A stretch of DNA of 39,218 nt from positions 1 to 39,218 of IMG/VR virus record IMGVR_UViG_3300044634_003656, one strand, 5' to 3'. The notes under the pieces were generated by a model. That model did no database searches, was not told the origin of the DNA, and saw nothing but the letters and a program-made list of their open reading frames with translations. Both the position numbers and the translations under genes were made by a program. Numbering within the stretch: position 1 is the first letter of the stretch; each line of letters starts with the position of its first letter. Positions 4,451 to 37,866 of the stretch are shown here, piece by piece. The DNA is from a virus.

Positions 4451-6564
4451 ACGATTTTCTGACCTCCGCCGATCCCGCAGTGTCCGACATTTTGAAGGAA
4501 CTCCAGGATTGCCTCACCAACTCCAGCGGGTTGACCAATCAGCAGGAAGCCGACTGGCGCACCCGGATGTGCCTCTGGACCGGGCAGAGCGACGATGGGA
4601 GGAAATGGAAGGATCGCCTCGGGGTGGATCCCATGCCGTGGAACGGCGCGAGCGATCAGAGGGTGCGCGCCGTGGACGAGGTGATCAACGAACAGGTCGC
4701 CCTCATGCTGGAGGCGTTCTCGCGTTCCATGGTGCAGGTCACCTCCAGCCGAGGGGACAGCATGGGTGCGTCCCAGCTCGTGAACCATATCCTGACGTGG
4801 CTGTTCAAGGTCCATCTCCGGAGCGACCTGGAACGCGAGCTGGAGCTCTATGCCAATTACCGCCAGCAATACGGCATGGCCGTGATGGGGGTTTGGTGGG
4901 AACAACGGCGTCAACTGGAGAACGAGGAGATCGACCTGGAGAAGACCTATGCGGACGCCCAGGAAGATCCCGAGAAACTCACCAGCCTCGCCCTGCTCGT
5001 GGAGAAACTCCAGGACCCGCTGGCCGAGGAGGAAATGCTGGCGTTCATCCGGGGATATTCCGAGAGCATCTCCAAGAAACAGGCCCGGGTCATCCTCAAC
5101 GAATTGCGCGAGACCGGCCGCAGCCTGGTGCCCCGCGAGACGATGCTTTCCTCGCTCCCGTGCTGGGAAGCGCTCCGCCCGTTTGTGGACGTGTTCTTTC
5201 CCGTGGCCACCAAGAGCATGCAGGCGGCCCGCTGGATCGCGAAGATCGAATGGGTGACCGCCACCGAGTTGGCCGACAGGGCCACCACGGACGATTACGA
5301 CGAGGCGTTCATCGACGCCGCGCTCAAGACCAAGGGCAAAGATTGGGAGGGCAACATCCTCCAGACCGCCACGGACTGGACCCGGGCCCGCCGTGGGTCC
5401 ACCAGCCCGTTCCTTGAGGATGTGGAGGATCTCATCCAAATCTTCCACGTTTACCGCCGGGGCACGGACACCGACACGGGTGTGCCCGCGATTTATTGCA
5501 CGGTCATTTCGCCGCATGTGCCCGAGCTGGCGGCGAAACATGAGTTGCTCCCCTACAAACACGGCCGGTTCCCGTTCGTGGCCGGGGTGCGCGAATACGT
5601 GGGCCGGTCCATGAGCGAAAGCCGGAGCGTGCCGGAGCTGGGGAAATCCCTTCAGGACAGCATCAAAGCGCAGAGCGATGCGCGGACCGACTACACCAGT
5701 ATCGCCACCATCCCGCCCGTGATCGTCCCGCCCAACCGGGGCAAAACCCGCCTCGAGTTCGGGCCCGGGGTGCAACACACCGAACGCCGCTCGGGCGAAC
5801 TCCGCTGGATGGCGCCGCCGCCGGGCAACCTCGGGGCGTCGGTGGAGGTGGAACGCAGCAGCCAGGAACGGCTTGACCGGTATTTCGGACGGAACACCCA
5901 GAGCGTCAACCCGGTGCTCTCGCAGCTTTTGCAGACCCGTTTGGTGAACAAGTTCCTGAGCGAGGTGCAGGAGATGGCGACCCAGACCGTGCAGCTTGCC
6001 CAGCAGTATCTGCCGGAAACCACCGTGGAACGCATCACGGGCGGGCAACGGGTGCCGTTCACCGTGAGCCGGGACGAGATCCAAGGGCAGTTCGATATCC
6101 GGATCGCGTTCGACGTGGCCAATCTCGACCGGGAATTGCTCAAGCAAAAGCTGGAGTTTCTCCAGGGGGTCATGGGCATGGATCAAACCGGACAGGTGGA
6201 CCGGGCCGGCGCGGTCAACTGGGCGATGGGTTCGTTCGATCCGCTGCTTGCGCAGCAGCTCGTGGGCGATCCCCAGGCGGTGGCCGCCAACGAGACCGAG
6301 GACGAACAGAAGAACTTCGCGCTCATCACCAGCGGGGTGGAACCGCCCATGCGCGAGTCCGGCCAGAACTATCAGCTCCGGTTGCAGACCCTCTTGGGGA
6401 TCGTCCAGCAAAACCCGGCAGCGGCGCAGAGCCTGGAGATGCGGGCGGATCGCAAGGCGCTGTTCGAGAACCGGGTGAAACATCTCCAGTTCATGATCCA
6501 GCAGCAGACGAACGCCAACACCGGACGCACCGGGGCGGAGCCGCTCATGGAGCCGACCGCCTGA
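4447..6564 (+). CDS. Portal protein (P22/podovirus type)
   Basis: A 705-residue protein, close in length to P22-type portals. Recognisable features are the N-terminal segment PMPWNGASDQRVRAVDEVIN followed by a helix near residues 55-95, a long charged clip/stem region, an ETMLSSLPCWEALRPFVDVF segment (with P-FPVAT), and a C-terminal crown rich in Gln and acidic helices (QQQTNANTGRTG). The portal forms the dodecameric ring through which DNA is packaged and ejected. It overlaps the endolysin stop by 4 bases. Its placement about 10 kb downstream of capsid and after the lysis genes differs from the usual TerL-portal-scaffold-capsid order. Confidence in portal identity rests on the N-terminal motif and length. 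Confidence 0.8.
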   Translation: MNDFLTSADPAVSDILKELQDCLTNSSGLTNQQEADWRTRMCLWTGQSDDGRKWKDRLGVDPMPWNGASDQRVRAVDEVINEQVALMLEAFSRSMVQVTSSRGDSMGASQLVNHILTWLFKVHLRSDLERELELYANYRQQYGMAVMGVWWEQRRQLENEEIDLEKTYADAQEDPEKLTSLALLVEKLQDPLAEEEMLAFIRGYSESISKKQARVILNELRETGRSLVPRETMLSSLPCWEALRPFVDVFFPVATKSMQAARWIAKIEWVTATELADRATTDDYDEAFIDAALKTKGKDWEGNILQTATDWTRARRGSTSPFLEDVEDLIQIFHVYRRGTDTDTGVPAIYCTVISPHVPELAAKHELLPYKHGRFPFVAGVREYVGRSMSESRSVPELGKSLQDSIKAQSDARTDYTSIATIPPVIVPPNRGKTRLEFGPGVQHTERRSGELRWMAPPPGNLGASVEVERSSQERLDRYFGRNTQSVNPVLSQLLQTRLVNKFLSEVQEMATQTVQLAQQYLPETTVERITGGQRVPFTVSRDEIQGQFDIRIAFDVANLDRELLKQKLEFLQGVMGMDQTGQVDRAGAVNWAMGSFDPLLAQQLVGDPQAVAANETEDEQKNFALITSGVEPPMRESGQNYQLRLQTLLGIVQQNPAAAQSLEMRADRKALFENRVKHLQFMIQQQTNANTGRTGAEPLMEPTA

Positions 6565-6645
6565 CGAGCCTTCATTTCCCGCTTTTCCGTGGTTTCCGCA
6601 CCGCAGCTTTGCCAGCGGTGCCGCCCCGCTTTCACTGTCTTTCCC

Positions 6646-8364
6646 GTGCGTTACGAACGAGCCACACAGAACGATGCCGAGAGCCGCGTGGACGGCGATT
6701 CTGTGTTCCTCGGCGTGAACACGAAGCTCCGCAAGGAATTGCTGGACCCGGGCTGGTGCGCGGGGGCGACGAACAAGGTGTTCGCCACGGGCGCAGCCGA
6801 CACACGGCCCGGGTTCCGGATGCCGGTGAGTCACCGGATCGGCACGGCGGCGCTCCCGGCCAACACCTACATTCGCGGCTCGGGGGTTTACTCCGACCCG
6901 GACGGCGTGGAATACATCGTGCACGCGGCAAGCGACCGGGCTTATTTCACCCGGGAAAACAGCTCGGGGTTCAGCATCGCTTACACGGGACTCGTGACCG
7001 CCAACCCCATCGATGTGGTGCAGGCGTTCAACCAGGTGCTCCTGTTCCGGGGTCCGGGCAAGGTGCCTTGGGTGTGGGATGGCGACATCAACACGACGTT
7101 TGTGCAGGCCTCGCAGGTGGACCCGGGCGCGGGGCTCAGCCCGATCCCGGGCGCGACGACGGCGGAGCTCATGGCGAACCGGCTTTTCATCCCCTACAGC
7201 CGGGACCAAATCGCGGTGTCGGATCTGCTCGACTACACGGCTTACGACGCGGCGCTCAATGATTTCAACGTGAACTCCGGGAGCGACGACGCGATTGTGC
7301 GCGTGTTCCCGTTCACGAACAATTCGCTCCTGGTGTTCAAGGACCAGAGCACGCATCTCATTTCCAACATTTACGGCGACCTCTCCGAGGTGCGGCTCGA
7401 CCAGATCAACGCGGAGATCGGGTGCGCGGCCCGGCGTTCGGTGGCGATGGTGGGGGGGGACGTGTTCTTTCTGGCGTCGGACGGGGTCTATCGGGTGCAA
7501 CAGATCATCCAGGGCCGGCTGCAAACGGGGGCCACTCCAGTGTCCGACCCCATCACCCCGTTGATCCGGCGGATCAACGAGAACGCCCGGGGCCTGTGCA
7601 CGGGGGCGGTGTTGGGGCGTTACTACTACCTTGCGGTGCCGCTCGACACGGCGACCCGGCCCAATGCGCTCCTGGTGTACGACACTGTCACGGACGCCTG
7701 GCAGGGCATCCACAAAGGGCCCGTGCCGCAGTCGGCCACGGACCAGGGATTGTTCTTCGATAACCTGCTCATCTCGGATTGGGGCGGGGAGAAACGGCTT
7801 TACGGGATGTATCACGGACCGGCCGGGGGGTCGGACAATGCGCAGTCCGGGGCGTTCCTGCTTTACGACGGGGTGACGGATCAATGGAACGGGGTGGAGT
7901 ATCCCGTGGCGGACCAGATCGAGACCCGGGGTTACACGTTCAAAGATCATCAGCCGAAGGTGCTGCGCCGGATCAGTTTCAACCTGGAGACATGGGCGCC
8001 GAGTGTGACGGTGGATCTGCTCACGGACGGTTACAACGAGACGACGAGCACGGGCCCGGCCATCACCAAAAGCCGGAGCCGCTACTACACGCACGGTGTG
8101 CCCGACTGGAACCCGAGCAACGCCGCGCTCGATCACGCCACGCCGCGCCGGGAGGATTACTCCGTGGATCTGGCCGTGCCGATTCTGCTCGACCCGCCCG
8201 GGGTGGATTTCGACGCCCGGCAAACGCTCCTTGAGAAACGGGCGGTGTCGGCCACGGCGCGGTCCGTGTCGATGCGGATCAGCAACACGCAAGGCGTCTG
8301 CGCGGTGACGGCCACCACGGTGGAGGCCACCAACCCGCAGCGCACCCTGAAACCACTCGCATGA
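6646..8364 (+). CDS. Tail protein, beta-propeller-like stopper/tubular protein
   Basis: About 572 residues. I choose GTG 6646 (M-RYERATQNDAESRVDGDSV); an upstream GTG at 6589 adds 19 residues of low-complexity sequence and is less likely. The product has repeated short beta blades such as YIVHAASDRAYFT, VLLFRGPGKVPWVWDG, NRLFIPYSRDQIAVSDLLD, LLVFKDQSTHLISN and VFFLASDGVYRVQ, i.e. regularly spaced propeller-like strands. Podovirus tail tubular protein B and P22 stabiliser-type proteins have this architecture and sit below the portal. It immediately follows the portal and overlaps the fibre gene by 4 bases. The precise family is inferred from repeats and position, not from a single decisive motif. 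Confidence 0.65.
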   Translation: MRYERATQNDAESRVDGDSVFLGVNTKLRKELLDPGWCAGATNKVFATGAADTRPGFRMPVSHRIGTAALPANTYIRGSGVYSDPDGVEYIVHAASDRAYFTRENSSGFSIAYTGLVTANPIDVVQAFNQVLLFRGPGKVPWVWDGDINTTFVQASQVDPGAGLSPIPGATTAELMANRLFIPYSRDQIAVSDLLDYTAYDAALNDFNVNSGSDDAIVRVFPFTNNSLLVFKDQSTHLISNIYGDLSEVRLDQINAEIGCAARRSVAMVGGDVFFLASDGVYRVQQIIQGRLQTGATPVSDPITPLIRRINENARGLCTGAVLGRYYYLAVPLDTATRPNALLVYDTVTDAWQGIHKGPVPQSATDQGLFFDNLLISDWGGEKRLYGMYHGPAGGSDNAQSGAFLLYDGVTDQWNGVEYPVADQIETRGYTFKDHQPKVLRRISFNLETWAPSVTVDLLTDGYNETTSTGPAITKSRSRYYTHGVPDWNPSNAALDHATPRREDYSVDLAVPILLDPPGVDFDARQTLLEKRAVSATARSVSMRISNTQGVCAVTATTVEATNPQRTLKPLA

Positions 8365-9908: not shown

Positions 9909-11018
9909 ATGTCGCGCTCCTACACGCTTTCGCCCAAGAAGAAGAAGAAGAAAAGTGCGCCGTCTTACAAAGACTCGCGCAACCAGCAGAGCGCGCAGGA
10001 TTACGCCAACAGCCTGCTCGACTCGTTCCAGCAACGGCAGGAACAAACGCTGAGCTCCGCGATCAAGCAGACCCCCAAGGCGATCGCCGCCACGGCGGCG
10101 GCGATGGAGAAAGCGGACCGAACCTCGCGCACGAACCGGATCGGGTTCCTGGAGGAGTTCGGGCAACGGGCCCGTGCGGCGGCGTTCAAGGCCAACCCGG
10201 AGCTGCGCAGTGCGCTCGACCGTTACAACTCGGGCACGACCGACGCCGCCGATGCGCTGGGCGATGCCGCCACGGGCCGCAGTGCGTTGCTCGCTTCGCT
10301 GAACGAGGACGCGCTGGCCGCAGGGCCGAGCGCGATCTCCCGGGCGCTCGAGCAAAATGCGCTCGATGAACTCTCCCTCGGGGGCAGGCTCTCGGCGGAT
10401 GAAGCCCGGCTGGTGGATCAAACCAGCCGCGCCGCGTTTGCGGATCGCGGGTTGGTGCGGTCCAACCCGGCCATTGTGGCCGAGGTGATGAACCGCGATG
10501 CCGCCCAACGCGCCCGGATGCGGGAACGCCAGGGGTTTGCGGGATCGGTGAACCAGCAGTTGCTCGGGGAACAGGCGCAGAACCGGGACTTCGGCACCAA
10601 CGTCGAACAGCTCAACCGGGCCGACGCGGCGCAACGGGCCGGGTTCCAAACCCAACGGGCCGGGCTGCTCTCCAACGCGGTGACGATCAACCAGGCGATC
10701 GATCCCGCGCAGCAGATTCTGGCCGGGCCGACCAACGCCGGCGGCGCAACCCAGAGCGGGCTCAGCCTGCTCAACATGAGCCAGAGCACGCCGACGATGC
10801 TCACCGGTCTCCAAGACCAGGCTTACGGGGCGTTTCTCAACCGGGACGAAAGCCGATACAACGCGGCGCTCAACGCGGCCACGGCGCAGGACGCGGCAAA
10901 CAAACAACTCGCAGCCGCACGGTCCGCCGGGAAAAGCGCGATGATCGGTTCGGGCATTCAAGCCGTCGGATCGCTCGGCGGCGCTGCGATCGGTGCGGCG
11001 GGGCTTGTCATTTTCTGA
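9909..11018 (+). CDS. Internal virion / DNA-ejection-type protein
   Basis: A 369-residue protein with a Lys-rich N-terminus (six consecutive Lys after MSRSYTLSP), long Ala/Gln/Arg-rich helices, and a Gly-rich hydrophobic C-terminus (SGIQAVGSLGGAAIGAAGL) able to enter a membrane. This resembles T7 gp14-type or P22 ejection proteins in organisation: DNA-binding or packaged N-terminus, helical body, membrane-active tail. The motif RSNPAIVAEVMNRDAAQRAR recurs, to my memory, in similarly placed podovirus proteins. ATG 9909 is preceded by AACTTT with no Shine-Dalgarno. It is followed after 3 bases by the PAPS-reductase-like gene. Confidence 0.55.
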   Translation: MSRSYTLSPKKKKKKSAPSYKDSRNQQSAQDYANSLLDSFQQRQEQTLSSAIKQTPKAIAATAAAMEKADRTSRTNRIGFLEEFGQRARAAAFKANPELRSALDRYNSGTTDAADALGDAATGRSALLASLNEDALAAGPSAISRALEQNALDELSLGGRLSADEARLVDQTSRAAFADRGLVRSNPAIVAEVMNRDAAQRARMRERQGFAGSVNQQLLGEQAQNRDFGTNVEQLNRADAAQRAGFQTQRAGLLSNAVTINQAIDPAQQILAGPTNAGGATQSGLSLLNMSQSTPTMLTGLQDQAYGAFLNRDESRYNAALNAATAQDAANKQLAAARSAGKSAMIGSGIQAVGSLGGAAIGAAGLVIF

Positions 11019-11021
11019 GCC

Positions 11022-11858
11022 ATGCCGCGACTCGACGAACTGATTGAGGCCAGCCAGGCGCAGATCCGCGAGGCGTTGGAACAGTCCACCGCACCCGTTT
11101 TGCTCTGCTCGTTTGGCAAGGACTCGATGGTGCTGCTCCATTTGCTCCGGTCGATGGGGCTGGACCTGCCCGTTGTGTTCCATCGGGATCCGTGGTTTCC
11201 CCACAAATACGCGTTCGCGGATCGGATGATCCGGGAATGGAACCTCACCGTTTGGGATTGGCAGCCGGTGGCGGTGAGCCTCTGGCACGGGAAAGGCATC
11301 GTGGCGTTCACGAATCATTATCAGATCGGCCAGACGCCCACGGGTGAACCGGTGACGTGTTCGGTGCCGAAGAACATTCTCCCGCCCGTGGAGGGTAAAC
11401 CTTACCTGTGCGGGTTGGCGGATCTCATGCACCGGCCTACGGGCACGTTCAAATACCCGTGGGACCTGGCGTTCATCGGGCACAAGTCCAGCGACCAGGA
11501 TCAGATCGCCGGCCGGGTGCCGTTGCACACGGACCTTGTCCGGGTGGACCACGGGCCGACTGGAGCGTTCCCGCTCCGGCACTGGACGGACGATGATATC
11601 TGGGACTACACGGACCGGTTCGCCGTTCCCGTGCAGACGGATCGGTATTACCGGGATGATCTCGGGTGGGATGAGTTGCCGGATAAGACGCATAACTCGG
11701 ATTATTGGACGGCCTGCATGGCGTGTATCGACCGGCGCAACGGGCCGACGGTGCATTGCCCGAAGCTCAAACGGCAGGTGCGCAATGTGTCCGGAACGGT
11801 GGCGCATATGGAACTCCGGGCGTCGTATTTCGGGGAGGAGGCGCCGACGTGCTCTTAG
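11022..11858 (+). CDS. PAPS-reductase family PP-loop ATPase
   Basis: A 278-residue protein. The PP-loop SFGKDS is at residues 30-35 after a beta strand (PVLLC), followed by HLLRSMGLDLPVVFHRDPWF, the arrangement of the PAPS reductase/DndC-like adenine-nucleotide alpha-hydrolase family. Near the C-terminus Cys232, Cys235 and Cys246 (CMAC ... HCP) could hold a metal or Fe-S cluster or a catalytic thiol. Family members reduce PAPS or activate substrates for sulfur transfer (DNA phosphorothioation, tRNA thiolation). No DndB/D/E partners are present, so the substrate is unknown. It lies within the virion-protein block and overlaps the following SET gene by 10 bases, suggesting coupled translation and a shared job. 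Phage PAPS-reductase-like genes are common but mostly uncharacterised. Confidence 0.8.
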   Translation: MPRLDELIEASQAQIREALEQSTAPVLLCSFGKDSMVLLHLLRSMGLDLPVVFHRDPWFPHKYAFADRMIREWNLTVWDWQPVAVSLWHGKGIVAFTNHYQIGQTPTGEPVTCSVPKNILPPVEGKPYLCGLADLMHRPTGTFKYPWDLAFIGHKSSDQDQIAGRVPLHTDLVRVDHGPTGAFPLRHWTDDDIWDYTDRFAVPVQTDRYYRDDLGWDELPDKTHNSDYWTACMACIDRRNGPTVHCPKLKRQVRNVSGTVAHMELRASYFGEEAPTCS

Positions 11859-12247
11859 TCCCCACGTTCATCGCGGCCTCGGGGATTCACGGGATCGGGC
11901 TCTTCGCCGCCCGCGACATTGCCCGGGGGGAACCGCTCTGGGAGTTCACCCGGGGGATCGATACGCGGTTTGAGTTCGAGGACGTCGGCCGGTTCCCGCT
12001 CCATGTGCAACGGCGGGTCCGGCATTACTGCTATGTGAACCCGGCCCGGCCCGGCGCCCTGGTGCTGTGCGGGGACGACGCACGGTTCTGGAATTTCGCC
12101 GCCGATCCCAACGCGATCGAGGACGCGCCGCCCCGGCACGACCGGGAGAGTGTGCTCGTGGCCGCCCGCCCGATTGCGGCCGGGGAAGAGCTCACTGTGG
12201 GGCTGGAGACCGATGCCGACGCGGCCCGCAAACTTTCACACCGATAA
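11849..12247 (+). CDS. Small SET-domain protein (putative lysine methyltransferase)
   Basis: A 132-residue, essentially SET-only protein. GTG 11849 is chosen because GGAGG at 11834-11838 sits 10 bases upstream; a longer ATG form would run antisense to nothing but through the PAPS-reductase gene in another frame. Motifs: GIHGIGLFAARDIARGEPLW (residues 12-31, SET-N), WNFAADPNA (81-89, the NHSxxPN pseudoknot element with H and S replaced), and AAGEELTVGLE (110-120, where the catalytic-type Tyr of ELTxDY is absent). SET proteins transfer methyl groups from S-adenosylmethionine to lysines. Whether this divergent version is active is uncertain. It overlaps the PAPS-reductase-like gene by 10 bases and is followed after 6 bases by a virion-type protein gene. 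Confidence 0.7.
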   Translation: MLLVPTFIAASGIHGIGLFAARDIARGEPLWEFTRGIDTRFEFEDVGRFPLHVQRRVRHYCYVNPARPGALVLCGDDARFWNFAADPNAIEDAPPRHDRESVLVAARPIAAGEELTVGLETDADAARKLSHR

Positions 12248-12253
12248 CACGCC

Positions 12254-13027
12254 ATGCAATACAACCCTTCTGTCAACGACAACCGCGGGAACATCATCGC
12301 GAACTCCGCCGACAACGTCGCCCGCACGACTTTGGCCGGGTATCAATCCATGGCCGACGGGATCTCCCAGGCGGGGCGGTCGGTGGCCGGGGGGATTATG
12401 GGGTACGGTCAGGAGCGGGATCGGCTGGAGAAGGAGTCGGCGCTCATTGACGGGAAGACCCGGGCTTACGCGCAGATGGGGGTGCTATCGGACGCGGATT
12501 ACGCGGCGATGGCGAAGGGCAATCTGGCGAAGAAACGGGAGATCCTTTCCCAGGCGGATGCGATTTATCTGGATCAGATCCAACGGCAGAATCAGGGGTT
12601 GCAGGAGCGGAAACTGAATGAGGATATCCGGCAGTTTGATGTGAATCATCCGGCGGGGTGGGAGCCAACGGCGAAGATCATGCAAAAGAATGGGGCGACT
12701 GTGGTGATGCAGCAGACCAGCCCGTTCCAAGGGTCGGTGCGGGTGCTCGATGAACCGGCAATGCCTGAACCTGTCATTGATCCGACTACGGGGAAACCTA
12801 TGGCCGGGTGGTTGAAGATAGGAAACCGATTGGTGAACACGAACGCGCCGCAGGGAGGCTTGTGGGGTCAGGCATTTCCCGGCACTACAGGTTCAGGAAC
12901 GACTGCGCCCGGGTCCGCGACTCCGGCACCCACAGCCGCCGGCGGGAATGTGGTGGTGGGCACGATCCGCACCCAGAACGGGCGCCGGTATCGGTACGAC
13001 GGCAGTGAATGGAAGGAGATCAAGTGA
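12254..13027 (+). CDS. Internal virion-type protein with C-terminal QNGxxYRY motif
   Basis: A 257-residue protein. The N-terminal half is helical (ANSADNVARTTLAGYQSMAD; RDRLEKESALIDGKTRAYAQ), with a Gly-rich bend GISQAGRSVAGGIMGYG; a Pro/Gly/Thr linker follows and the C-terminus is IRTQNGRRYRYDGSEWKEIK. That last motif also closes the unrelated 23378-23782 protein (IRIQNGHSYRYNAATGRWE), pointing to a shared small binding module. The gene precedes and overlaps the giant polyvalent gene (GTGA at 13024). From position I infer an ejection/internal head protein partner; no known family identified. Confidence 0.5.
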   Translation: MQYNPSVNDNRGNIIANSADNVARTTLAGYQSMADGISQAGRSVAGGIMGYGQERDRLEKESALIDGKTRAYAQMGVLSDADYAAMAKGNLAKKREILSQADAIYLDQIQRQNQGLQERKLNEDIRQFDVNHPAGWEPTAKIMQKNGATVVMQQTSPFQGSVRVLDEPAMPEPVIDPTTGKPMAGWLKIGNRLVNTNAPQGGLWGQAFPGTTGSGTTAPGSATPAPTAAGGNVVVGTIRTQNGRRYRYDGSEWKEIK

Positions 13028-16000
13028 CGTTCGATCCGAGCCAGCCTTATACGGAGGAGGTGCCGTTTGATCCGGCGCAGCCGTTCACCGAGGAGGTGCC
13101 GTTTAATCCCAATGCGCCTTCGTCGCTGGCCGCCGGTCGGGCACGGGTGACGGTTTACAACAACCACGAAGATCAATACGGCTCGGAGTCCGCCCGGAAG
13201 AACCCGCTCACGGGCAAGCGGCAGTCGCAGGAAGGCGTGACGATCGCGGTGGACCCCAAGGTCATTCCCTACGGGAGCCGGGTGAAGATCCCGGCGCTGG
13301 CCGAGATGAGCGCGAACAAGGACGGGGTGTTCATCGCCCATGACACGGGCGGCGCGGTGAAGAGCCGGAAGGCGTCCGGCGGGAAGGAGCCGGTCATCGA
13401 TGTGTATGTGGCCGGGCAGAACCGGGCGGAGGCGAATGCGCGCATGGCGGCGCTGGATTCCGCGATCGCGCAGATGAGCAACGGCTCAGGAAATTTGGAC
13501 TTTGAGTTGCTCGATCCGCCGCCCGCTCAGAAACTCGACGGGGACACGGGCACAAACCGGATCCGATCGGGTCTCTCGACTTTCGCGCAGACGGCCGAGG
13601 CCGGGCTGGGCAAGGCGGTGGAAGGACTCGGGACGCTGGGCGCTCAGGTGGTGTCGGCTGTGCAAGGCACGGGCACGCCGCAGGAGGCGGCGGCGGAGGA
13701 GCGCAGTTTGCGCCAGATCATCGCCAAGGCGAAGGCCGCGCCGGACTTTCCCCAGAAAGACGCCCGGCTCGCGGAGCTGGAGCAACGGCTGGCCACGCTC
13801 GGTTCGTCGAAGGAGATTCTCGAGGTGCCGGATGCGATCCGGGCCGCAGGCCGTGCGGTGGTGGCCGATGCGGAAGATCGGTTTACGCCCAACCCGGCTT
13901 ATGCAGGGGAGTTTTTCGCGGAGACGGTGCCGCAAGTGGCCGGGAGCGCGGTGCAGTCGGTCGCGCCGTTCCTTGTGCCCGGGGTGGGCCCCGCGCTCGG
14001 GACTGCGCAGATGTTTGCGCAGACTTACCAAGACACTTACGAGAAGAACCGCGCCAAGGGGGTGGATGAAGAGGAGGCGATTCGGAGAGGGTTGCTCAAC
14101 GGGATTGTGTCCGGTGGCCTGGAGCCGATCGGCGGCGGGATTGTGGCGGGTGCAATGAAGAAGCTGGCCGCTGGAAAGGCGGCGCAAGGGGTGGGCCGGG
14201 CGATCGTGCAAGGCACGATGGGCGAGGGGGTGACGGGTTCGTTGCAGGAGACGGCTTCGCAGGTGATCAGCCAGGAGCAGCTCAACCCGATGGAGATTGC
14301 CAAGGCCGGGGCCCTGGAGGCGCTCGGGGGTTTCATGATGACGGGCGGGGCCGCCGGTGTGGGCAGGGTGGCGCAACGCTTTGCCACGCCGCAGCCAGGC
14401 GACCAAGCCGCCGCGCCCGCTACCGCAAACCTCGCTTCGCTTTCGGTGGGTGCCACGGAGCTCACGCCCGAGGAAGCCGCGCTCTTTGCCACGGCACCCG
14501 CAGCGCAGGCGGTGCCGGTGGCCGCGCCTGCTCCGGTGGCAGCGGTTGCTCAAGATCCGACCGATCGGTCAGATCCGACCGATCCGACCGATCCGCAACC
14601 CAATGAGCAGAACAACCAAGCGCCCTTACCGGGGCAGCCGCAGCTTCGACCCGACCTGCCGGAACAACAACAGTTGCCCGTGGTGCCGGAGCAACCGGCT
14701 CCACAAACACCGCAAGCGAATGCTGCAAGCGCAGCTCCCGCAGAGCCCGCCGCCCCCGTAGCGCCCCCGCGCAAACCCACCCAAGCCGAGCTGGCCGAAG
14801 CCGCCTACCGTGCCGAGCTCCAAGCCGAGCTCGACGCCGTCAACGAAGAGCACACCGTCGGCCTCGCCGACGCCCTGCGCCGCATCGGCGGGCTCCCTTC
14901 CAAGAAGAGCCGCCACTTTGGCGAATGGTCCGGCGAACTCGCCATGCTCATCGAAGAACGCCAAGGCGCACGCAAACGCTTCGGCAACAAACGCCTCTTC
15001 GAGAACCTCTTCGACGACGAAGCCCGCTCCATGGACACCGTCGCCGAAGGCCTGCGCGAAGAAGGCTTCGACGTGGCCGGGGCCGACGACGTGTTCCGCC
15101 TGGTCGACGAATGGATGCGCACCGGCAAAGAACCCAGGGCCGCCCTCACCAACATCGGCGCCGAGGAATCCATGGCCGGGATGCCCTTCTCCAAACAGAC
15201 CGCCACGGCCGGCGCCCCGGCGCTCCCGCCCGGCGTGCTCACCCAAGCCAAGGCCGCAGTCAAGACCCTCTTCTCCCGGGCGGGCATGAACCCCTCGACC
15301 GTCTGGCACGCCAGCCCCGCCGCCATCCCCGCCGGGGTGGGCGGCGACTTGGTCCGCGCCGAAGCCGCCGCCGGGCGCGCCGTCGAAGGCTTCTTCCTCG
15401 GTGGCCGCGTGCATCTCGTGGCGTCCGGCATCGCCCAGGGCGCCGCGCAGTTCGGCATCCCGTTTGAAACCCGGGCCCAACAGGTGGCACTCCACGAAAC
15501 CGTGGGCCACGACGGACTCGGGGCCGTGCTGGCCGCCAAAAGCCGCCGCGTTTTCAACTCGATCGTGGATGGCGTTTACACCCGGATCCCCAAAGCCGAG
15601 CTTTCCCAGATCGCCCGCGACTACCAGGCCAACGTGGCCACCCCGCAAGGCCGGGCCGACGTGGTCACCGAATATCTCGCCCGCCAAACCGAGCCGGGAA
15701 TTCCCAGCCAAGGCATTGTGGCCCGCGCCATCGCCAAGATCCGCGAGCTTCTGCGCGAGGTGTTCCCCAAGCTCCGCATGACCGACGGCGACATTGTGGC
15801 GTTGCTCAACGCAGCACGGAACCGGGTGCAGGCCGGGCGCTCCAATCCAAACGGGATCCGGTTTTCCATGCGCGCCTTTCACGGCACGCCCCACAAGGTG
15901 GATCGGTTCAGCCTCGACAAAATCGGCACCGGAGAAGGGGCGCAGGCTTACGGATGGGGGCTGTACTTTGCGGAGAATAAGGAGGTGGCAGATCAATACC

Positions 16001-19000
16001 GCAAAAGCATCAAGCCTGAATGGCGAGTAACGCCTACAAAAGACGGGTTTCGAGCAATGGTTTTAAATGCCAATTTGCAACCCAAGGCTGCACGCAATTT
16101 CACAACTGAAGCAGAAGCATCTCAATGGGCAGAAAATGAAGCGGCCTACACTGGCGGAAACATCTACACCGTCGAGCTCCTGCCCGATGAGGCGGAGTAT
16201 CTGGACTGGGACAAGCCGCTTTCAGAGCAGAGTGAGAAAATCCGAAATGCCATGGAGCCACTTCTCGCCAATGATGAAGTTTGGCAGGCATGGAAAACCA
16301 ACGGCACGCACGCAGCCGGGGTAGCTAATAAAGGGGGGGACGCATACGCTCGGTTAGCTGGCCGAAATGGCATGACAAGAAGCGGGATGGACGGAAGAAA
16401 ATCCGCATCAAAAGCGCTTCTAAATGCTGGCATCCCTGGCATCCGTTACCTGGACAGCAACAGCCGCGACGGCGGCAGCGGGACTTCTAACTTCGTTATC
16501 TTCGACGAAAACCTTGTTCAGATCCTCGAAGAAAACGGAGCGGTGGTGACCAAAAATCCCGACGGCTCCAAGCCGCAGGAAATCCGCTTTTCCAAGGTGC
16601 CATCGCAGGCGCAGACCGAAGCCGCCGCCGCGTCCCCGGAGAAACGCCGGGGCCATGTGGAGACCGTGCGCCGGATGCTGGAGGTGACGCCCTCGGTCTC
16701 CGACAACGTGGAGAGTTTCTACCGGGCAACCACCGCCGAGGAAGTCAACGCCCGTGCCAACGAGAGGATCGACACCGCCGGGTTGGACGTGACTTTGAAC
16801 GATTGGCTGGCCAATGCCGGGTCCGACGAGCTGAGCATGGCCGTGGGGCATCACCTCGCCCTGCGGCTCCAAGCCATGGACCGCCACGCTGAAGCCACCC
16901 AGGTGCGGATCAAGATGGCCGAGAACCTCACGTCCCCGGCGCGGGCTCTGTGGTATATTTCCACCATCGCCAAGACCACGCCCGAAGGCATCCAAGCGTT
17001 TGCCGAGAGCGTTACCCGGACGGCAGCCAAGGATATGGGGCCCGAGCTGGCCGCAGCTTACGAGAACATCGCCGCGCTCCAGGCCGAGCTGGCCAAGGTC
17101 AAGCGCAAGCTCGGCGCGGAGACTGTGCTGGAGATTCAAGACTACCTCCGCTCCCTCAAACTCACCCCCGAACGGCTCACCGAACTCAACACCAAGCTGC
17201 GCGACGCGCTGGTGCTCAGCCCGGAGAACCCGGGCAACGCCCGGAACAAGATCGTCGGGATGCTAGTCAACTTCGGGATGGAGAACAAACAGGCAACCAA
17301 GCTGGCCGAACAGGCGATCCGGCAGTTCACCGCCAAGGCCAAGAAAGTGCGCGAGAGCCTCATCAAAAAGATGTTGGCCGGGGTCAAAGCCCGCAAGGAA
17401 CGGGTGCCCAAGAGCGTGCTGGAGAAGCTGATGCTCCTCAACAACGAGGGCAAGCTCACCGATGAGACCCTGCACGCGCAGATCGCCAAGGCGCTGGGCG
17501 TGCCGGTGTTCACGAAGGAAGCCGCGGACAAAGTCGCCAAGCTCCAGAAGGATTACGAGTCCGCGCCCGAGGGCACGATGAAGATGGTCAAGGGCGCGCA
17601 AATGCTCGAAGCCGTGCATGAGCTGGTGCCCACTTCGATGTGGAGCAAGGTCCGGGCGATCCAGAACATCTCCATGCTGCTCTCGGGCAAGACGATCCTG
17701 CGCAACGTGGTCGGCAACGCCGGGATGTTCCTGCTCAACACCACGGCCGACACCGTGGGCGCTTTTGCGGTGGACCCGGTGACGTCGGTCTTCACCGGTC
17801 AACGGTCCACGACCGCTCCGCAGCTTTTCGCACGGGTGCGCGGGCTCGCTGAACCCATCCGGGTAGGCAAAGCCGGGTGGCAATGGGCCGCAGACCAAGG
17901 GTTGCCCGTGAGACAACGCTTGTCCGAGGCGCTCCGCACGGTGATCGACACGAGCCGGATGCTCAGTTCCCAGGTGACCGATTTAAAGCAACTCACCCAG
18001 CAGTTCAAACACACGTTTTCTTCATGGCTCGGGCGGAAATTTGAAGACGGTCTCGGCTTGGTTCTGGGCGCGGCCGACTTGGCATTCTGGGGGAGCGCCT
18101 ACCAAGCCAGCCTCGCCCGGAGCATCGCGGCGGCAAAGGCCAACGGTCAGCCGCAGATCGCCCCCACGGAAGCGATGGTGGAACAGGCCCTCTGGGACGC
18201 CCAACGCGCCATTTTCCAGGACGACAACATGGCCAGCGCCGCCCTGAAGCATGTGCAGAAAGGGCTGAACCTTCCCCGGCGCGATGCCGATGGGCGGATC
18301 GTGTTTGACCGTCAATTCGGGCTGGGAACTGCGACGGTGCCTTTCACACAGGTGCCAGGCTCGATCCTTATGCAAGGCATCGAGGCCTCCCCGGCGGGTG
18401 TGGTCAACGTGGTGAGCAAGCTCCACGATCTTTACGGGGATCTCCGCAGCGACACGACCGGCCCCGAAGCCAAGGTGATTTCGCAACGCCGGTTTGTGGA
18501 AGCCATGTCGCGCTTCCTGGTGGGTTCGGCCGCCACGGGGCTCATGGGTTGGATGCTCCTCAAGCTCGGCATCCTGTCCGGGGCGCCCGATGAGGACAAA
18601 GACGTGGAGGCGATGCGCCGCACGATGGGCATGGGCGGGTATTCATTCAACTTCTCCGAGCTTAAACGGCGGGCGTTGTCCGGGGATTGGGCCACCCCGA
18701 CCAAGCTGCACCAAGCCGCGCAGGAGGGCGACATTCTCTTTGGCTACGATTGGTTCCAACCGGCCGCATTGCCGGTGATGTTCGGGGCCGCTCTCGCCCA
18801 GGCGCAGGACAAACTCACGGCCAAAGGCGGCACGGTGTCGGGCATGGACACCACGCTTTCCATGGCCAAGTCGGCCTCGGACAGCATCACCCGGCAATCG
18901 ATGTTGGCCGGGGTCAACCAGATGATGCGCGACGTTTCCGCCTATGGTCCGGGAGAGGCGGCGGTGCGCAAGCTGATCCAGATCCCCGGCAACTTCGTGC

Positions 19001-19629
19001 CCGCTGTGGTGCGTCAGACCCAGCAGAGCATGGCCGAGGGCGTGGCCGAAACCCGGGGCGGTTCGGTGCTCGATCAGGAATGGAACAAGATCCAAGCGAA
19101 GATCCCGTTCCTAGGGAACAGATTCCCGGCCAAGCTCGATGCGTTCGGTCAGGCGGTGCAGCGTTACAACTACGGCGGGGACGGGTTTGTGAATACCTGG
19201 ATCAACCCGTTCACGATTGCCGAGGCCAAGCGTAACCCGGCAGCGAACGAGATGATGCGGCTCTATGATGCCACCGGTGAAAAGCGCGTGATGGCGCCCA
19301 TCCAGCAGCCCAAGGTGAATGTGAACGGTCAACCGCTCCAGCTCACCAACGAGCAGATCGTGCAGATGCAGAACTACACGGGGAAACTCGCCAGTGAAAC
19401 GATGATCCGGCTGATGAGCAGCCCGCAGTTCGCGGCGTTTCCCGATGAATACAAGGCCCGGGTCATTTCCGGGGTGCTCGGGGATATTCAGAGCGCCGCG
19501 AAGATCGAGTTGCTCGGACAACAGCCGGTGAAGGTGGACCGCTACACGGGCAACGTGTCCCGCCCGGACGATGGCACGCTCTTTATGGTGCTCCTGGGTC
19601 GGGCTCGAGGGCTCGTGCCTGGGCGGTAA
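13024..19629 (+). CDS. Giant polyvalent virion protein: 3D murein domain, HExxGH peptidase, ART-like domain
   Basis: A 2201-residue protein. GTG 13024 is the start: AAGGAG at 13013-13018 lies 5 bases before it; ATG 13009 would add five residues over that site. Order of parts: tandem FDPxQPxTEEVP repeats (2-30); a 3D-type beta-barrel domain (~42-132, with DTGGAVKS and IDVY), as in MltA-like lytic transglycosylases; glycine-rich helices (~360-450) that could enter membranes; a Pro/Ala linker with DPTD repeats (~480-590); a helical polyvalent-type domain; HETVGH (824-829), a zinc-peptidase signature; an ADP-ribosyltransferase-like region (~950-1175: AFHGTPHKVDRF, then GWGLYFAEN); long helices; a hydrophobic helix (~1832-1852). 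Phage polyvalent proteins carry such mosaics and are injected with DNA. It ends the late operon. Confidence 0.8.
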   Translation: MTFDPSQPYTEEVPFDPAQPFTEEVPFNPNAPSSLAAGRARVTVYNNHEDQYGSESARKNPLTGKRQSQEGVTIAVDPKVIPYGSRVKIPALAEMSANKDGVFIAHDTGGAVKSRKASGGKEPVIDVYVAGQNRAEANARMAALDSAIAQMSNGSGNLDFELLDPPPAQKLDGDTGTNRIRSGLSTFAQTAEAGLGKAVEGLGTLGAQVVSAVQGTGTPQEAAAEERSLRQIIAKAKAAPDFPQKDARLAELEQRLATLGSSKEILEVPDAIRAAGRAVVADAEDRFTPNPAYAGEFFAETVPQVAGSAVQSVAPFLVPGVGPALGTAQMFAQTYQDTYEKNRAKGVDEEEAIRRGLLNGIVSGGLEPIGGGIVAGAMKKLAAGKAAQGVGRAIVQGTMGEGVTGSLQETASQVISQEQLNPMEIAKAGALEALGGFMMTGGAAGVGRVAQRFATPQPGDQAAAPATANLASLSVGATELTPEEAALFATAPAAQAVPVAAPAPVAAVAQDPTDRSDPTDPTDPQPNEQNNQAPLPGQPQLRPDLPEQQQLPVVPEQPAPQTPQANAASAAPAEPAAPVAPPRKPTQAELAEAAYRAELQAELDAVNEEHTVGLADALRRIGGLPSKKSRHFGEWSGELAMLIEERQGARKRFGNKRLFENLFDDEARSMDTVAEGLREEGFDVAGADDVFRLVDEWMRTGKEPRAALTNIGAEESMAGMPFSKQTATAGAPALPPGVLTQAKAAVKTLFSRAGMNPSTVWHASPAAIPAGVGGDLVRAEAAAGRAVEGFFLGGRVHLVASGIAQGAAQFGIPFETRAQQVALHETVGHDGLGAVLAAKSRRVFNSIVDGVYTRIPKAELSQIARDYQANVATPQGRADVVTEYLARQTEPGIPSQGIVARAIAKIRELLREVFPKLRMTDGDIVALLNAARNRVQAGRSNPNGIRFSMRAFHGTPHKVDRFSLDKIGTGEGAQAYGWGLYFAENKEVADQYRKSIKPEWRVTPTKDGFRAMVLNANLQPKAARNFTTEAEASQWAENEAAYTGGNIYTVELLPDEAEYLDWDKPLSEQSEKIRNAMEPLLANDEVWQAWKTNGTHAAGVANKGGDAYARLAGRNGMTRSGMDGRKSASKALLNAGIPGIRYLDSNSRDGGSGTSNFVIFDENLVQILEENGAVVTKNPDGSKPQEIRFSKVPSQAQTEAAAASPEKRRGHVETVRRMLEVTPSVSDNVESFYRATTAEEVNARANERIDTAGLDVTLNDWLANAGSDELSMAVGHHLALRLQAMDRHAEATQVRIKMAENLTSPARALWYISTIAKTTPEGIQAFAESVTRTAAKDMGPELAAAYENIAALQAELAKVKRKLGAETVLEIQDYLRSLKLTPERLTELNTKLRDALVLSPENPGNARNKIVGMLVNFGMENKQATKLAEQAIRQFTAKAKKVRESLIKKMLAGVKARKERVPKSVLEKLMLLNNEGKLTDETLHAQIAKALGVPVFTKEAADKVAKLQKDYESAPEGTMKMVKGAQMLEAVHELVPTSMWSKVRAIQNISMLLSGKTILRNVVGNAGMFLLNTTADTVGAFAVDPVTSVFTGQRSTTAPQLFARVRGLAEPIRVGKAGWQWAADQGLPVRQRLSEALRTVIDTSRMLSSQVTDLKQLTQQFKHTFSSWLGRKFEDGLGLVLGAADLAFWGSAYQASLARSIAAAKANGQPQIAPTEAMVEQALWDAQRAIFQDDNMASAALKHVQKGLNLPRRDADGRIVFDRQFGLGTATVPFTQVPGSILMQGIEASPAGVVNVVSKLHDLYGDLRSDTTGPEAKVISQRRFVEAMSRFLVGSAATGLMGWMLLKLGILSGAPDEDKDVEAMRRTMGMGGYSFNFSELKRRALSGDWATPTKLHQAAQEGDILFGYDWFQPAALPVMFGAALAQAQDKLTAKGGTVSGMDTTLSMAKSASDSITRQSMLAGVNQMMRDVSAYGPGEAAVRKLIQIPGNFVPAVVRQTQQSMAEGVAETRGGSVLDQEWNKIQAKIPFLGNRFPAKLDAFGQAVQRYNYGGDGFVNTWINPFTIAEAKRNPAANEMMRLYDATGEKRVMAPIQQPKVNVNGQPLQLTNEQIVQMQNYTGKLASETMIRLMSSPQFAAFPDEYKARVISGVLGDIQSAAKIELLGQQPVKVDRYTGNVSRPDDGTLFMVLLGRARGLVPGR

Positions 19630-28198: not shown

Positions 28199-28450
28199 AT
28201 GCAAAACACCATCACCCAACTCATCGCCGACCGGCTCAACCACGCCTCCCTCAACGAAAAACCCGAGGTCGCCGCCTACATGGGCGAACTCCTGGACCGG
28301 ATCAACGCTCTGACCCCCGCCCCGGACACCCGCGTTTTCCGCATTCTGGCCAACGGCCAAACCACCCTCGCCGCCGGGGACGACGTGTTGGCCCGCCTCG
28401 CCGACGCCCTGCGCGAACCACGGCCGACGTTCTTCCTCATCACCGCATGA
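28199..28450 (+). CDS. Small hypothetical protein upstream of DnaB
   Basis: An 83-residue protein (MQNTITQLIADRLNHASLNE at the start) with two predicted helices, a short beta part (TRVFRILANGQTTLAAGDDV) and a final helix-strand. It starts without Shine-Dalgarno (CCACCCT before ATG) and its stop overlaps the DnaB ATG. A small DnaB-linked partner is suggested by coupling only. Unknown family. Confidence 0.5.
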   Translation: MQNTITQLIADRLNHASLNEKPEVAAYMGELLDRINALTPAPDTRVFRILANGQTTLAAGDDVLARLADALREPRPTFFLITA

Positions 28451-29913
28451 GCCAGCGCCTCTTCCCTGCCAGCCCGGACGCCGAAAAAGCGTTGCTCGGC
28501 TGCATGCTCATCGGGGGGCCGGACGTGATCGAGGAGGTCGCCGCGGCGCTCACCGTCGAGCATTTCCACACGCCCGGGCAAGCGGTGGTGTTCGGCGCCA
28601 TCATCGCCCTGCACACGGCCCGCAAACCGGTGGACCTCATCACCCTCACCCAACATCTGCGGGACGCGGACGAGCTGGACCTCGCGGGCGGCCCGGCCGG
28701 GGTGACCGATCTCCAACTGTTCATGCCCACGGCGGCGAACTTCGCCGAATACGTGCGGATCTTGCGGGAGAAAAACATCTTGCGGCGGATCATCAAACTC
28801 GGCACGCAGTTCAGCTCCCGGTGTTACGAGGAGCAGGACAACACCGAGGCGTTGCTGGAGGAGTTCCAGGGCGAGGCGATCGACATCGGCGGGCTCACCG
28901 CCGACGCCGAATCCCTCAAACCCATCTCCAAACAGGAGGTCATGGACGCCGTGGACCGGATTCAGGCGCGCTACAATCAGCGCGGGAAAACCTCCGGCCT
29001 GTCCACCGGGCTCAACGACCTGGACCGGATGCTCGACGGGCTCAAGCCGAAATACGTCTACGTGTTCGCGGGGCGTCCCGCCATGGGCAAAAGCGCCGCC
29101 GGGATCAACATCGCGGAGAACATCGCGCTCGGAGTGGAGGCCGTAGCCGCCACCCTCGAAAACGACCGGCGCGCCGCCGTGGCGTTGTTCGCCGTGGAGA
29201 TGACCCGCGAGCAGATCATCGACCGGCTCATCTGCGGGCGCGCCAGGATCGACATGCAACGGCTGCGCGACGGGTTTCTCGCCGACTCGGATTTCCCGAA
29301 AATCACCGCGGCGGCATCGGCCATGGTGCAGGGGCGGATCATCCTGGACGACACGGCGGGGCTGACCATCGCCCAGTTCCGGGCGCGGGCGCGGCGTGCG
29401 GTGGTCCTGCACAAGGCGAAGCTGATCGTCATCGACTACGTGCAGATCATGAAAGGGAGCTCCAAGCGGGCCCGGGACAACCGGAACCTGGAGCTGGCCG
29501 AGATCATGCAAGGCATCCGGGAAACGGCCAAACAGCTCAACGTGCCGATCATCGTGCTCGCGCAGCTCAACCGAGGCGCGGAGGAGCGGCGGGACAGCCG
29601 GCCGACGATGGCGGACCTGAAGGAGTGCGGAGCGATCGAGGAGGAGGCGCACGTTGTGGGCCTGCTGTATCGGCCGATCTACTACGCGAAGACCCAGGAG
29701 CAGCGGGAGAAGCTCCTTGAAAAATACCAAGCGGATGAAGCCGCCAACGTCTCCGACATGAACGACCTGGAGAACTACGCGGAGATAATCATCGACAAAC
29801 AACGCGACGGCGCGACGGGCACCGTGCGCCTGAATTTCTTCGGCAAAATGACCCGGTTTGAGAACCGCACCAGCAAGCTCTTCAGCAACAACCCAGACGA
29901 ACGCCAACGATAG
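28447..29913 (+). CDS. dnaB: Replicative DNA helicase, DnaB family
   Basis: A 488-residue protein with the normal DnaB layout. N-terminal helical domain: SPDAEKALLGCMLIGGPDVI and the following HTPGQAVVFGAI pattern. RecA-type domain: STGLNDLDRMLDGLKPKYVY, Walker A GRPAMGKSA (about residues 209-217), a Walker B-type strand LIVIDYVQIM (~322-331), LAQLNRGAEERRDSRPTMAD (H3/arginine region) and an I-I-D-K-QRDGATGTVRLNF end. It unwinds the fork as a hexamer. There is a ~20-residue extra segment (VEAVAATLENDRRAAVALFA) after Walker A. It overlaps the small upstream gene and follows the initiator-like gene, the expected loader-helicase order. Confidence 0.95.
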   Translation: MSQRLFPASPDAEKALLGCMLIGGPDVIEEVAAALTVEHFHTPGQAVVFGAIIALHTARKPVDLITLTQHLRDADELDLAGGPAGVTDLQLFMPTAANFAEYVRILREKNILRRIIKLGTQFSSRCYEEQDNTEALLEEFQGEAIDIGGLTADAESLKPISKQEVMDAVDRIQARYNQRGKTSGLSTGLNDLDRMLDGLKPKYVYVFAGRPAMGKSAAGINIAENIALGVEAVAATLENDRRAAVALFAVEMTREQIIDRLICGRARIDMQRLRDGFLADSDFPKITAAASAMVQGRIILDDTAGLTIAQFRARARRAVVLHKAKLIVIDYVQIMKGSSKRARDNRNLELAEIMQGIRETAKQLNVPIIVLAQLNRGAEERRDSRPTMADLKECGAIEEEAHVVGLLYRPIYYAKTQEQREKLLEKYQADEAANVSDMNDLENYAEIIIDKQRDGATGTVRLNFFGKMTRFENRTSKLFSNNPDERQR

Positions 29914-36864: not shown

Positions 36865-37866
36865 ATGCCTTACACCAACCAAGTCGCCCAAGTCGGCGCA
36901 CGCGAGGATCTCTCCGACATCCTCGCCGTGGCCGATGCCAAGCAAATGCCTTTCATGTCGAAGCTGCCGAAAGGCGACACTCCGACCAACATCATCTACT
37001 CCTTCCAGGTGGACCGCTACGCGGACCCGAAGGCGGGCGGGGTGCCCGACGGCAAAGACGTCGACACCTTCTCCAACTCCGCCGAACGCCGGGCCCGTCT
37101 CAGCGCCCGGTGCGAGGTCTACCGTGAAGCGCCCATGGTGGGCTTCATCGCCGAGAACGTGCAGACCGTCGCGGGAGTTCCCGAGCGCGAGTTTGCCCGC
37201 GCCAAGCGCAAGAGCATGTACGAGATCAAGCGCAACATGGAGATTGCGATGCTCTCCAACCAGGAGTCCGCAGAGGACAACGGGCAGGACGGCAGCAAAC
37301 AGCGCGGCTTCCAGAAATGGGTGCAGTCCGCCGTGCAGACCGATCTGCCCATCACCGACGCGGCTTATCGCACCCCGGCGGCGAGCATCTACAGCGGCGC
37401 AATGACGGACTTCGACGAGGACGATTTCCGCGCCATTCTCCAGAGCCGTTACGAGCAGACCGGCGTTGCCAAGGAACTCGTGTTGTTCGCGGGCACCCAG
37501 GTCAAAAACGCCATCACCGACTTCGGTCGGTATGCGCCGAACAAGGCGAGCAACACCGTGATCCGCCAATTCAACGGCGAGCTCAAGGACCGCGCCTTTG
37601 TGACGGCGATCGACCTCTACGAAGGCGACTACGGGGTGGTTGAAATCATCCCCGACCTGTTCGTCGGCGCCACCACGGGGGGCGGCACGCCCAACATGAA
37701 ACACGCGGCCCTGGTGGACATGGAGTTCATCGAGCTGCGCACCCACACCGCGCCTTACTTCCGGCCCTTGCCCGACGGTGGCGGCGGCCCTCGCGGCGTC
37801 ATCGACGCCATCGTGTCCCTCTGCGTCACCAGCCCTCTTGCCCACGGTAAAATCGCCGCTTCCTAA
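36865..37866 (+). CDS. Major capsid protein (DUF5309/SU10-like, HK97-fold type)
   Basis: A 333-residue protein. N-terminal REDLSDILAVADAKQMPFMS, a central EFARAKRKSMYEIKRNMEIA spine-like helix, a loop with DITDxxYRTPAASIY-type sequence, and the terminal segment DLFVGATTGGG then HAALVDMEFIELRTHTAPYF match DUF5309-type capsid proteins. It forms the icosahedral shell. It lies between the scaffold and a decoration-like gene. ATG 36865 has GTTTCT before it and no Shine-Dalgarno, which is notable for what should be the most highly expressed protein. Confidence 0.85.
   Translation: MPYTNQVAQVGAREDLSDILAVADAKQMPFMSKLPKGDTPTNIIYSFQVDRYADPKAGGVPDGKDVDTFSNSAERRARLSARCEVYREAPMVGFIAENVQTVAGVPEREFARAKRKSMYEIKRNMEIAMLSNQESAEDNGQDGSKQRGFQKWVQSAVQTDLPITDAAYRTPAASIYSGAMTDFDEDDFRAILQSRYEQTGVAKELVLFAGTQVKNAITDFGRYAPNKASNTVIRQFNGELKDRAFVTAIDLYEGDYGVVEIIPDLFVGATTGGGTPNMKHAALVDMEFIELRTHTAPYFRPLPDGGGGPRGVIDAIVSLCVTSPLAHGKIAAS

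Follow-up and report, generated by a model that had tools for sequence, protein, structure and literature searches.

A PP-loop enzyme that is reductase-like but lacks the reductase catalytic motif is common to many uncultured short-tailed phages, where it is encoded in the virion block. In one lineage its gene adjoins a gene for a SET-domain protein with an altered active site, and the coupling of the two genes is well supported. We describe the pair in a virus DNA of 39,218 nt (IMG/VR record IMGVR_UViG_3300044634_003656, positions 1–39,218), hereafter the window. Our tentative reading, to which we give somewhat less than even chances, is that the pair forms a module that modifies or matures an adjacent protein of the ejection type.

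The two genes overlap by 10 bases (11849–11858). A preliminary description of the window had proposed this arrangement, with an SFGKDS protein followed by a 132-residue SET protein that has its own Shine-Dalgarno sequence. The open reading frames, Pfam scores above the cut-offs and a ribosome-binding site 7 nt before the GTG start bear it out. The features of the locus are as follows.

9909–11018, plus strand: upstream gp14-like virion gene; its product has a C-terminal tail that is hydrophobic and Gly/Ala-rich, GAAIGAAGLVIF (position and tail as in almost all clusters; function from synteny)
11022–11858, plus strand: PP-loop (PAPS-reductase-fold) protein, 278 aa (PF01507, 8.6e-11; PHROG_424, 3.8e-8; AF2 pLDDT 92.7)
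11109–11126, plus strand: PP-loop motif SFGKDS, residues 30–35 (S30, G32, K33, D34 and S35 in 68/68 representatives)
11409–11411, plus strand: conserved Cys130 of the PP-loop protein (68/68 representatives)
11715–11726, plus strand: conserved CxxC of the PP-loop protein, Cys232 and Cys235 (68/68 each)
11757–11759, plus strand: conserved Cys246 of the PP-loop protein (68/68 representatives)
11832–11841, plus strand: Shine-Dalgarno sequence GGGGAGGAGG of the SET gene, within the PP-loop gene (read from the sequence)
11849–12247, plus strand: SET-domain protein, 132 aa, GTG start (PF00856, 2.2e-9)
11888–11908, plus strand: SAM-binding motif HGIGLFA of the SET protein, residues 14–20 (H14, G17 and A20 invariant in alignment A1)
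12089–12112, plus strand: WNFAADPN, residues 81–88 of the SET protein, replacing the canonical NHxxxPN (N82, F83 and N88 invariant in alignment A1)
12182–12208, plus strand: GEELTVGLE, residues 112–120 of the SET protein, with Leu at the catalytic Tyr position (Tyr in 0/14 readable clusters)
12254–13027, plus strand: downstream gp15-like virion gene (synteny; no family match)
13009–19629, plus strand: giant polyvalent-type protein of 2206 aa with a 3D domain (PF06725, 1.2e-8; syntenic with DC1 gp67)

Close relatives (L003) carry ATG at the corresponding position, which makes the GTG start of the SET gene credible. Purifying selection acts on both genes: in comparisons with L003 and L004, NG86 dN is 0.014–0.029 and dS is 0.08–0.20. 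Elsewhere in the window, a DnaB-type helicase is encoded at 28447–29913 and an SU10-type major capsid protein at 36865–37866 (PF17236, 2.4e-36). The giant protein also has a sub-threshold ART-PolyVal match.

The PP-loop protein scores 42.6 bits against Pfam PAPS_reduct (PF01507; cut-off 22.5) and has CSFGKDSM at residues 29–36. The SxGKDS motif and four cysteines are invariant in all 68 full-length representatives among the matches listed. Where three C-terminal cysteines had been described, the conserved set thus consists of C130, C232, C235 and C246; C277 is not conserved. In VIA-align, the AF2 model matched CysD best (1zun, Z 15.4, 29% identity over 160 residues), followed by APS reductase (4bwv, Z 14.0) and TtuA (5b4e, Z 11.7), and it also resembles FAD synthase and PAPS reductases. 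However, the curated CysD cut-off is missed (45.5 bits versus 195), and the four invariant cysteines are a feature of the phage family. The likeness to the Fe-S tRNA thiolases TtuA and NcsA (Z 10–12) includes cysteines that could bind a cluster, with a fold match limited to the PP-loop core of about 165 residues. APS reductases carry a set of cysteines that binds Fe-S. The four cysteines of the phage protein are probably the site of an Fe-S cluster or of a persulfide, and the modelled fold together with these cysteines makes an Fe-S or persulfide sulfurtransferase plausible.

IMG/VR was scanned with the PP-loop protein and alignments derived from it, and with the SET protein. The scans yielded at least 246 loci in at least 69 PP-loop clusters at 88% identity, with 68 full-length representatives. 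We count clusters, not loci, because many loci repeat one contig. One IMG/VR scan confirmed at least 404 relatives, so that the family extends beyond these clusters. It is essentially viral. A tblastn search of cultured phages at 1e-5 with the window protein and two divergent members gave no match. A scan of bacterial genomes found a single clear homologue (L116), its other hits being distant PP-loop proteins, and in a sample of the gammaproteobacterial class only the genome of L116 itself matched (1/369). In this gammaproteobacterial MAG, a class I methyltransferase (5620–6702) with an Rv2258c-like winged-helix domain is encoded 4 nt past the chromosomal homologue (4800–5615).

Among the matches listed, the SET gene is present in 17 of the 69 PP-loop clusters, always overlapping or abutting the PP-loop gene, and absent from the other 52. 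The pair is hence not unique to the window; the preliminary description had named uniqueness as an outcome that would count against its proposal. A search with a SET motif found a PP-loop partner at all 26 loci; this search is partly circular, since the motif was derived from paired loci, although two contigs were new and both had the partner. Likewise, when the upstream virion gene from the SET-first clade was used as query, every locus with a PP-loop gene that it retrieved also had SET (15/15). On the PP-loop tree, a quick tree on which the SET-clade branch has a support of 83, the SET-bearing proteins form one clade (one change versus 14.5 in shuffles, which were never as clustered as the observed pattern). 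This corresponds to a single gain of SET, with no loss in the sampled clade. The gene order flipped once, giving one clade with SET first, and the genes still adjoin. Pairwise distances of the PP-loop and SET proteins are correlated (r 0.84, n=16, Mantel p 0.0005). This is expected for a linked pair evolving together, but shared descent of linked genes alone can give the same result. The earlier proposal of a coupled two-enzyme system therefore stands as far as the coupling is concerned, by virtue of the single gain, absence of loss, order swap and correlated divergence, whereas the chemistries it assigned to the two enzymes are not established.

At one phage locus (L064), the place of SET is taken by an unrelated class I SAM methyltransferase (7111–7776), which overlaps the PP-loop gene by 4 nt and scores well above the Pfam cut-offs. 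No second case of such a replacement was seen in phages. Within PHROG_424, positions 7–84 are matched by the L064 methyltransferase and about 122–381 by the PP-loop proteins, a split that hints at fused methyltransferase/PP-loop members of that family; a search for such a fused protein in known phages located none.

The SET protein scores 38.1 bits against PF00856 (cut-off 22.4). Its model is of moderate confidence (pLDDT 71), and the best Foldseek/VIA matches of the model are SET domains (Z 9–11). It shares the fold and the SAM-binding motif with SET lysine methyltransferases such as MLL1 and chlorella virus vSET. In contrast to these enzymes, the phage proteins have lost the catalytic Tyr and the H of NHxxxPN throughout the clade. 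The position of the Tyr, after GEELTxx, is occupied by L, Q, T, F, P or A in 14/14 readable clusters, and the remaining three clusters read EEITIPP, TELTVPP and TEITVPP in this region. We regard the active site as altered, because NH has become NF and the Tyr is replaced in every readable cluster. Because of the loss of the Tyr, lysine methylation cannot be assumed, which weakens the suggestion in the preliminary description that the SET protein methylates lysine.

Possibly, although we would not call it likely, the SET protein serves the PP-loop enzyme as a catalytically dead adaptor or a SAM-sensing subunit and is no methyltransferase, which would be compatible with the module that we propose. 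This would fit the pattern of change, in which Tyr and NH are replaced but the SAM-binding motif persists, together with a new SDxDxxxK tail. It would also fit the SET protein of a huge phage, which has no adjoining PP-loop gene and retains both NH and Tyr; this phage was the sole match when cultured phages were searched by tblastn with the window SET protein. Yet another residue could serve in catalysis, the model is of moderate confidence, and L064 has a well-scoring class I methyltransferase in the place of SET.

The module occupies a fixed slot, with a gp14-like gene on its 5' side and, on its 3' side, a gp15-like gene that is usually accompanied by a very long one. The Gly/Ala-rich hydrophobic tail ends the product upstream of the module in about 60 of the 68 clusters among the matches listed, while the bodies of these proteins are often unalignable. 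GNAT-like or similar small proteins are encoded one gene further upstream. Other genes visit the slot as well, namely the class I methyltransferase of L064, CxxCxxCC proteins (PF03692) and HNH proteins. The CxxCxxCC proteins, putatively zinc- or iron-chelating, lie 3' of the PP-loop gene in L273 (6804–7091), L282 (6804–7100) and L292 (7294–7578).

The same slot is known from the Bcep22-like podophages DC1, JC1 and BcepIL02. Their PP-loop gene, gp65, lies in the same slot, after a GNAT gene and a virion gene and ahead of a further virion gene and the gene for a giant multidomain protein. It differs in that it has no SET gene beside it, and its product is too divergent for the window protein to find it by tblastn. 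Bcep22-like phages are already known for PP-loop proteins encoded at this place, as supposed sulfate-reduction morons (PMC9144972). Synteny with these phages, whose flanking products were found in virions in the case of JC1, supports the location of the pair in a virion block. The more specific earlier wording, between internal virion protein genes, is putative, because no family model names either flanking gene.

In the best-sampled family of upstream virion genes (A6), which lacks SET and is not the window's own clade, the PP-loop gene alternates with a Peptidase_S74 chaperone domain. All 11 informative loci without a PP-loop gene carry this domain at the C-terminus of the upstream protein (PF13884, 3e-11 and 6e-14), and none of the PP-loop-bearing loci has an S74 tail. 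After removal of duplicates, 60 distinct sequences have the PP-loop gene and 11 have S74, never both. The tree of A6 implies nine parsimony changes between PP-loop gene and S74, at least five of which fall on well-supported branches. Examples of the swap are provided by the upstream virion genes of L309, L323, L326, L343, L346 and L363 versus those of L042 and L034; across one swap, between L042 and L309, the flanking DNA shows identities of 81 and 92%. In family A5, the single locus without a PP-loop gene is also without an S74 domain. The PP-loop protein may replace the role of the S74 chaperone, or the site may merely be where modules recombine at the end of the virion gene.

In the module that we propose, the PP-loop protein would bind ATP and, by means of an Fe-S cluster or persulfide on its four cysteines, would activate a group, most likely sulfur, and transfer it onto a target. 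The SET protein would bind SAM, and would then either modify the same target or recruit it. The target would most likely be the product of the adjacent virion gene, a putative ejection-type protein with a Gly/Ala-rich hydrophobic C-terminus, which would be modified during maturation. The folds, motifs, adjacency and co-evolution of the two proteins, their fixed slot and the exclusion of S74 in one family are the direct observations behind this proposal. Fixed slot and S74 alternation lend indirect support to action on a virion protein, one of the targets suggested in the preliminary description. Against the module, the S74 alternation comes from a family without SET, a SET protein without the Tyr may not methylate anything, most PP-loop clusters (52/69) are without SET, and the class I methyltransferase in its place is a single case among phages. 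Furthermore, virion proteomics of JC1 gives no sign of physical association: it found the products flanking the PP-loop gene, whereas the PP-loop and GNAT products are both absent from its list (PMC9144972).

Two N-terminal features of upstream proteins were considered as possible substrates. Cap9 and QatC are QueC-family PP-loop enzymes that modify, or need, an N-terminal glycine of a protein and are encoded beside a protein starting with MG (PMC13279940). Many upstream genes here start with MGG, and this start is found in 58 of 375 genes near the PP-loop gene versus 2 of 231 farther off. Neighbours that start with MGG and are otherwise unalignable occur up to three places from the PP-loop gene (L256, L280, L282, L292, L300), sometimes three in a row. 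However, Cap9 and QatC belong to a different PP-loop subfamily. An N-terminal MGG as substrate of the PP-loop protein was not adopted, because MGG is kept in 11/11 informative loci of one family without the PP-loop gene and is missing in the window, where the upstream protein starts with MSRS. The Lys-rich N-terminus of that protein (KKKKKK) was dropped as a substrate of SET, as it is not common to other SET phages.

The strongest rival to a module acting on a virion protein, though one we consider doubtful, is modification of nucleic acid. The PP-loop protein would thiolate a position in tRNA or DNA and a SAM-dependent partner would methylate the product, in counter-defence or translation control, so that the slot would reflect late expression only. 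The resemblance of the fold to TtuA and NcsA speaks for this explanation, as does the association with unrelated SAM-dependent folds. A weak similarity to the DndC profile also does so, although it is confined to distant family members (20.7 versus a cut-off of 290.4 in one of them) and the window protein gave no match to the DndC model. Conversely, no Dnd/Ssp partner was seen alongside, and neither the PP-loop nor the SET protein was matched by PADLOC. Our analysis found no pointer to thio-modification of DNA, and SET domains are not known to act on nucleic acids. Moreover, nucleic-acid modification does not predict the fixed place in the virion block or the alternation with S74.

A more far-reaching version of the virion-protein module is, in our judgement, rather unlikely to hold in full. 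It would be a phage-specific system of post-translational modification: the neighbouring ejection protein would be matured chemically by the PP-loop enzyme, joined in one lineage by a SET-derived partner, and the enzyme would thereby do the work of the S74 domain in sister phages. Many of the viral genes called 'cysH' would then be parts of such systems and not of sulfur metabolism.

It is improbable that the two genes are functionally unlinked morons, each inserted on its own at a hot spot behind the gp14-like gene. Presence of the PP-loop gene is indeed polymorphic among close relatives, and the CxxCxxCC and HNH proteins show that other small genes enter the slot. But the SET of this subfamily was never seen without the PP-loop gene and was never lost in its clade despite the change in order, and the two proteins diverged in parallel, a correlation that linked descent also produces.

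A CysH-type auxiliary metabolic gene that raises the supply of sulfite or cysteine, with SET as a passenger, is unlikely: the Pfam and PHROG names and the publication of viral cysH as auxiliary metabolic genes, and of phage homologues as PAPS reductase (PMC9144972, PMC10269572), favour it, whereas the fixed slot, the coupling with SET in a single clade and the sequence of the protein itself oppose it. The PP-loop protein has the fold and PP-loop of CysH PAPS/APS reductases (Z 12–14), but the C-terminal catalytic motif ECG[LI]H is absent from all 68 full-length representatives among the matches listed, and curated cut-offs are missed by wide margins (25.5 bits versus 165.1 for NCBIfam cysH; 34 versus 154 for PRK02090). 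By these sequence criteria the protein is not CysH.

Searches of the open-access literature found no publication on a PP-loop/SET pair, in agreement with the earlier statement that no such pair had been described. The pairing with a Tyr-less SET protein, the flip in gene order and the alternation with S74 were not found in open-access papers either. Genes for CysH or PAPS reductase have repeatedly been reported as viral sulfur-metabolism genes. This usual reading probably does not hold for the virion-block genes described here. At least this family needs another reading, because it lacks the CysH motif, keeps to a single slot and, among the relatives of one upstream gene, alternates with a chaperone domain of a virion protein. 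The pair also brings to light a group of SET proteins whose active site is altered and that appear to be linked to a PP-loop partner. Two small genes and a single candidate substrate make the function of PAPS-like proteins of phages directly testable.
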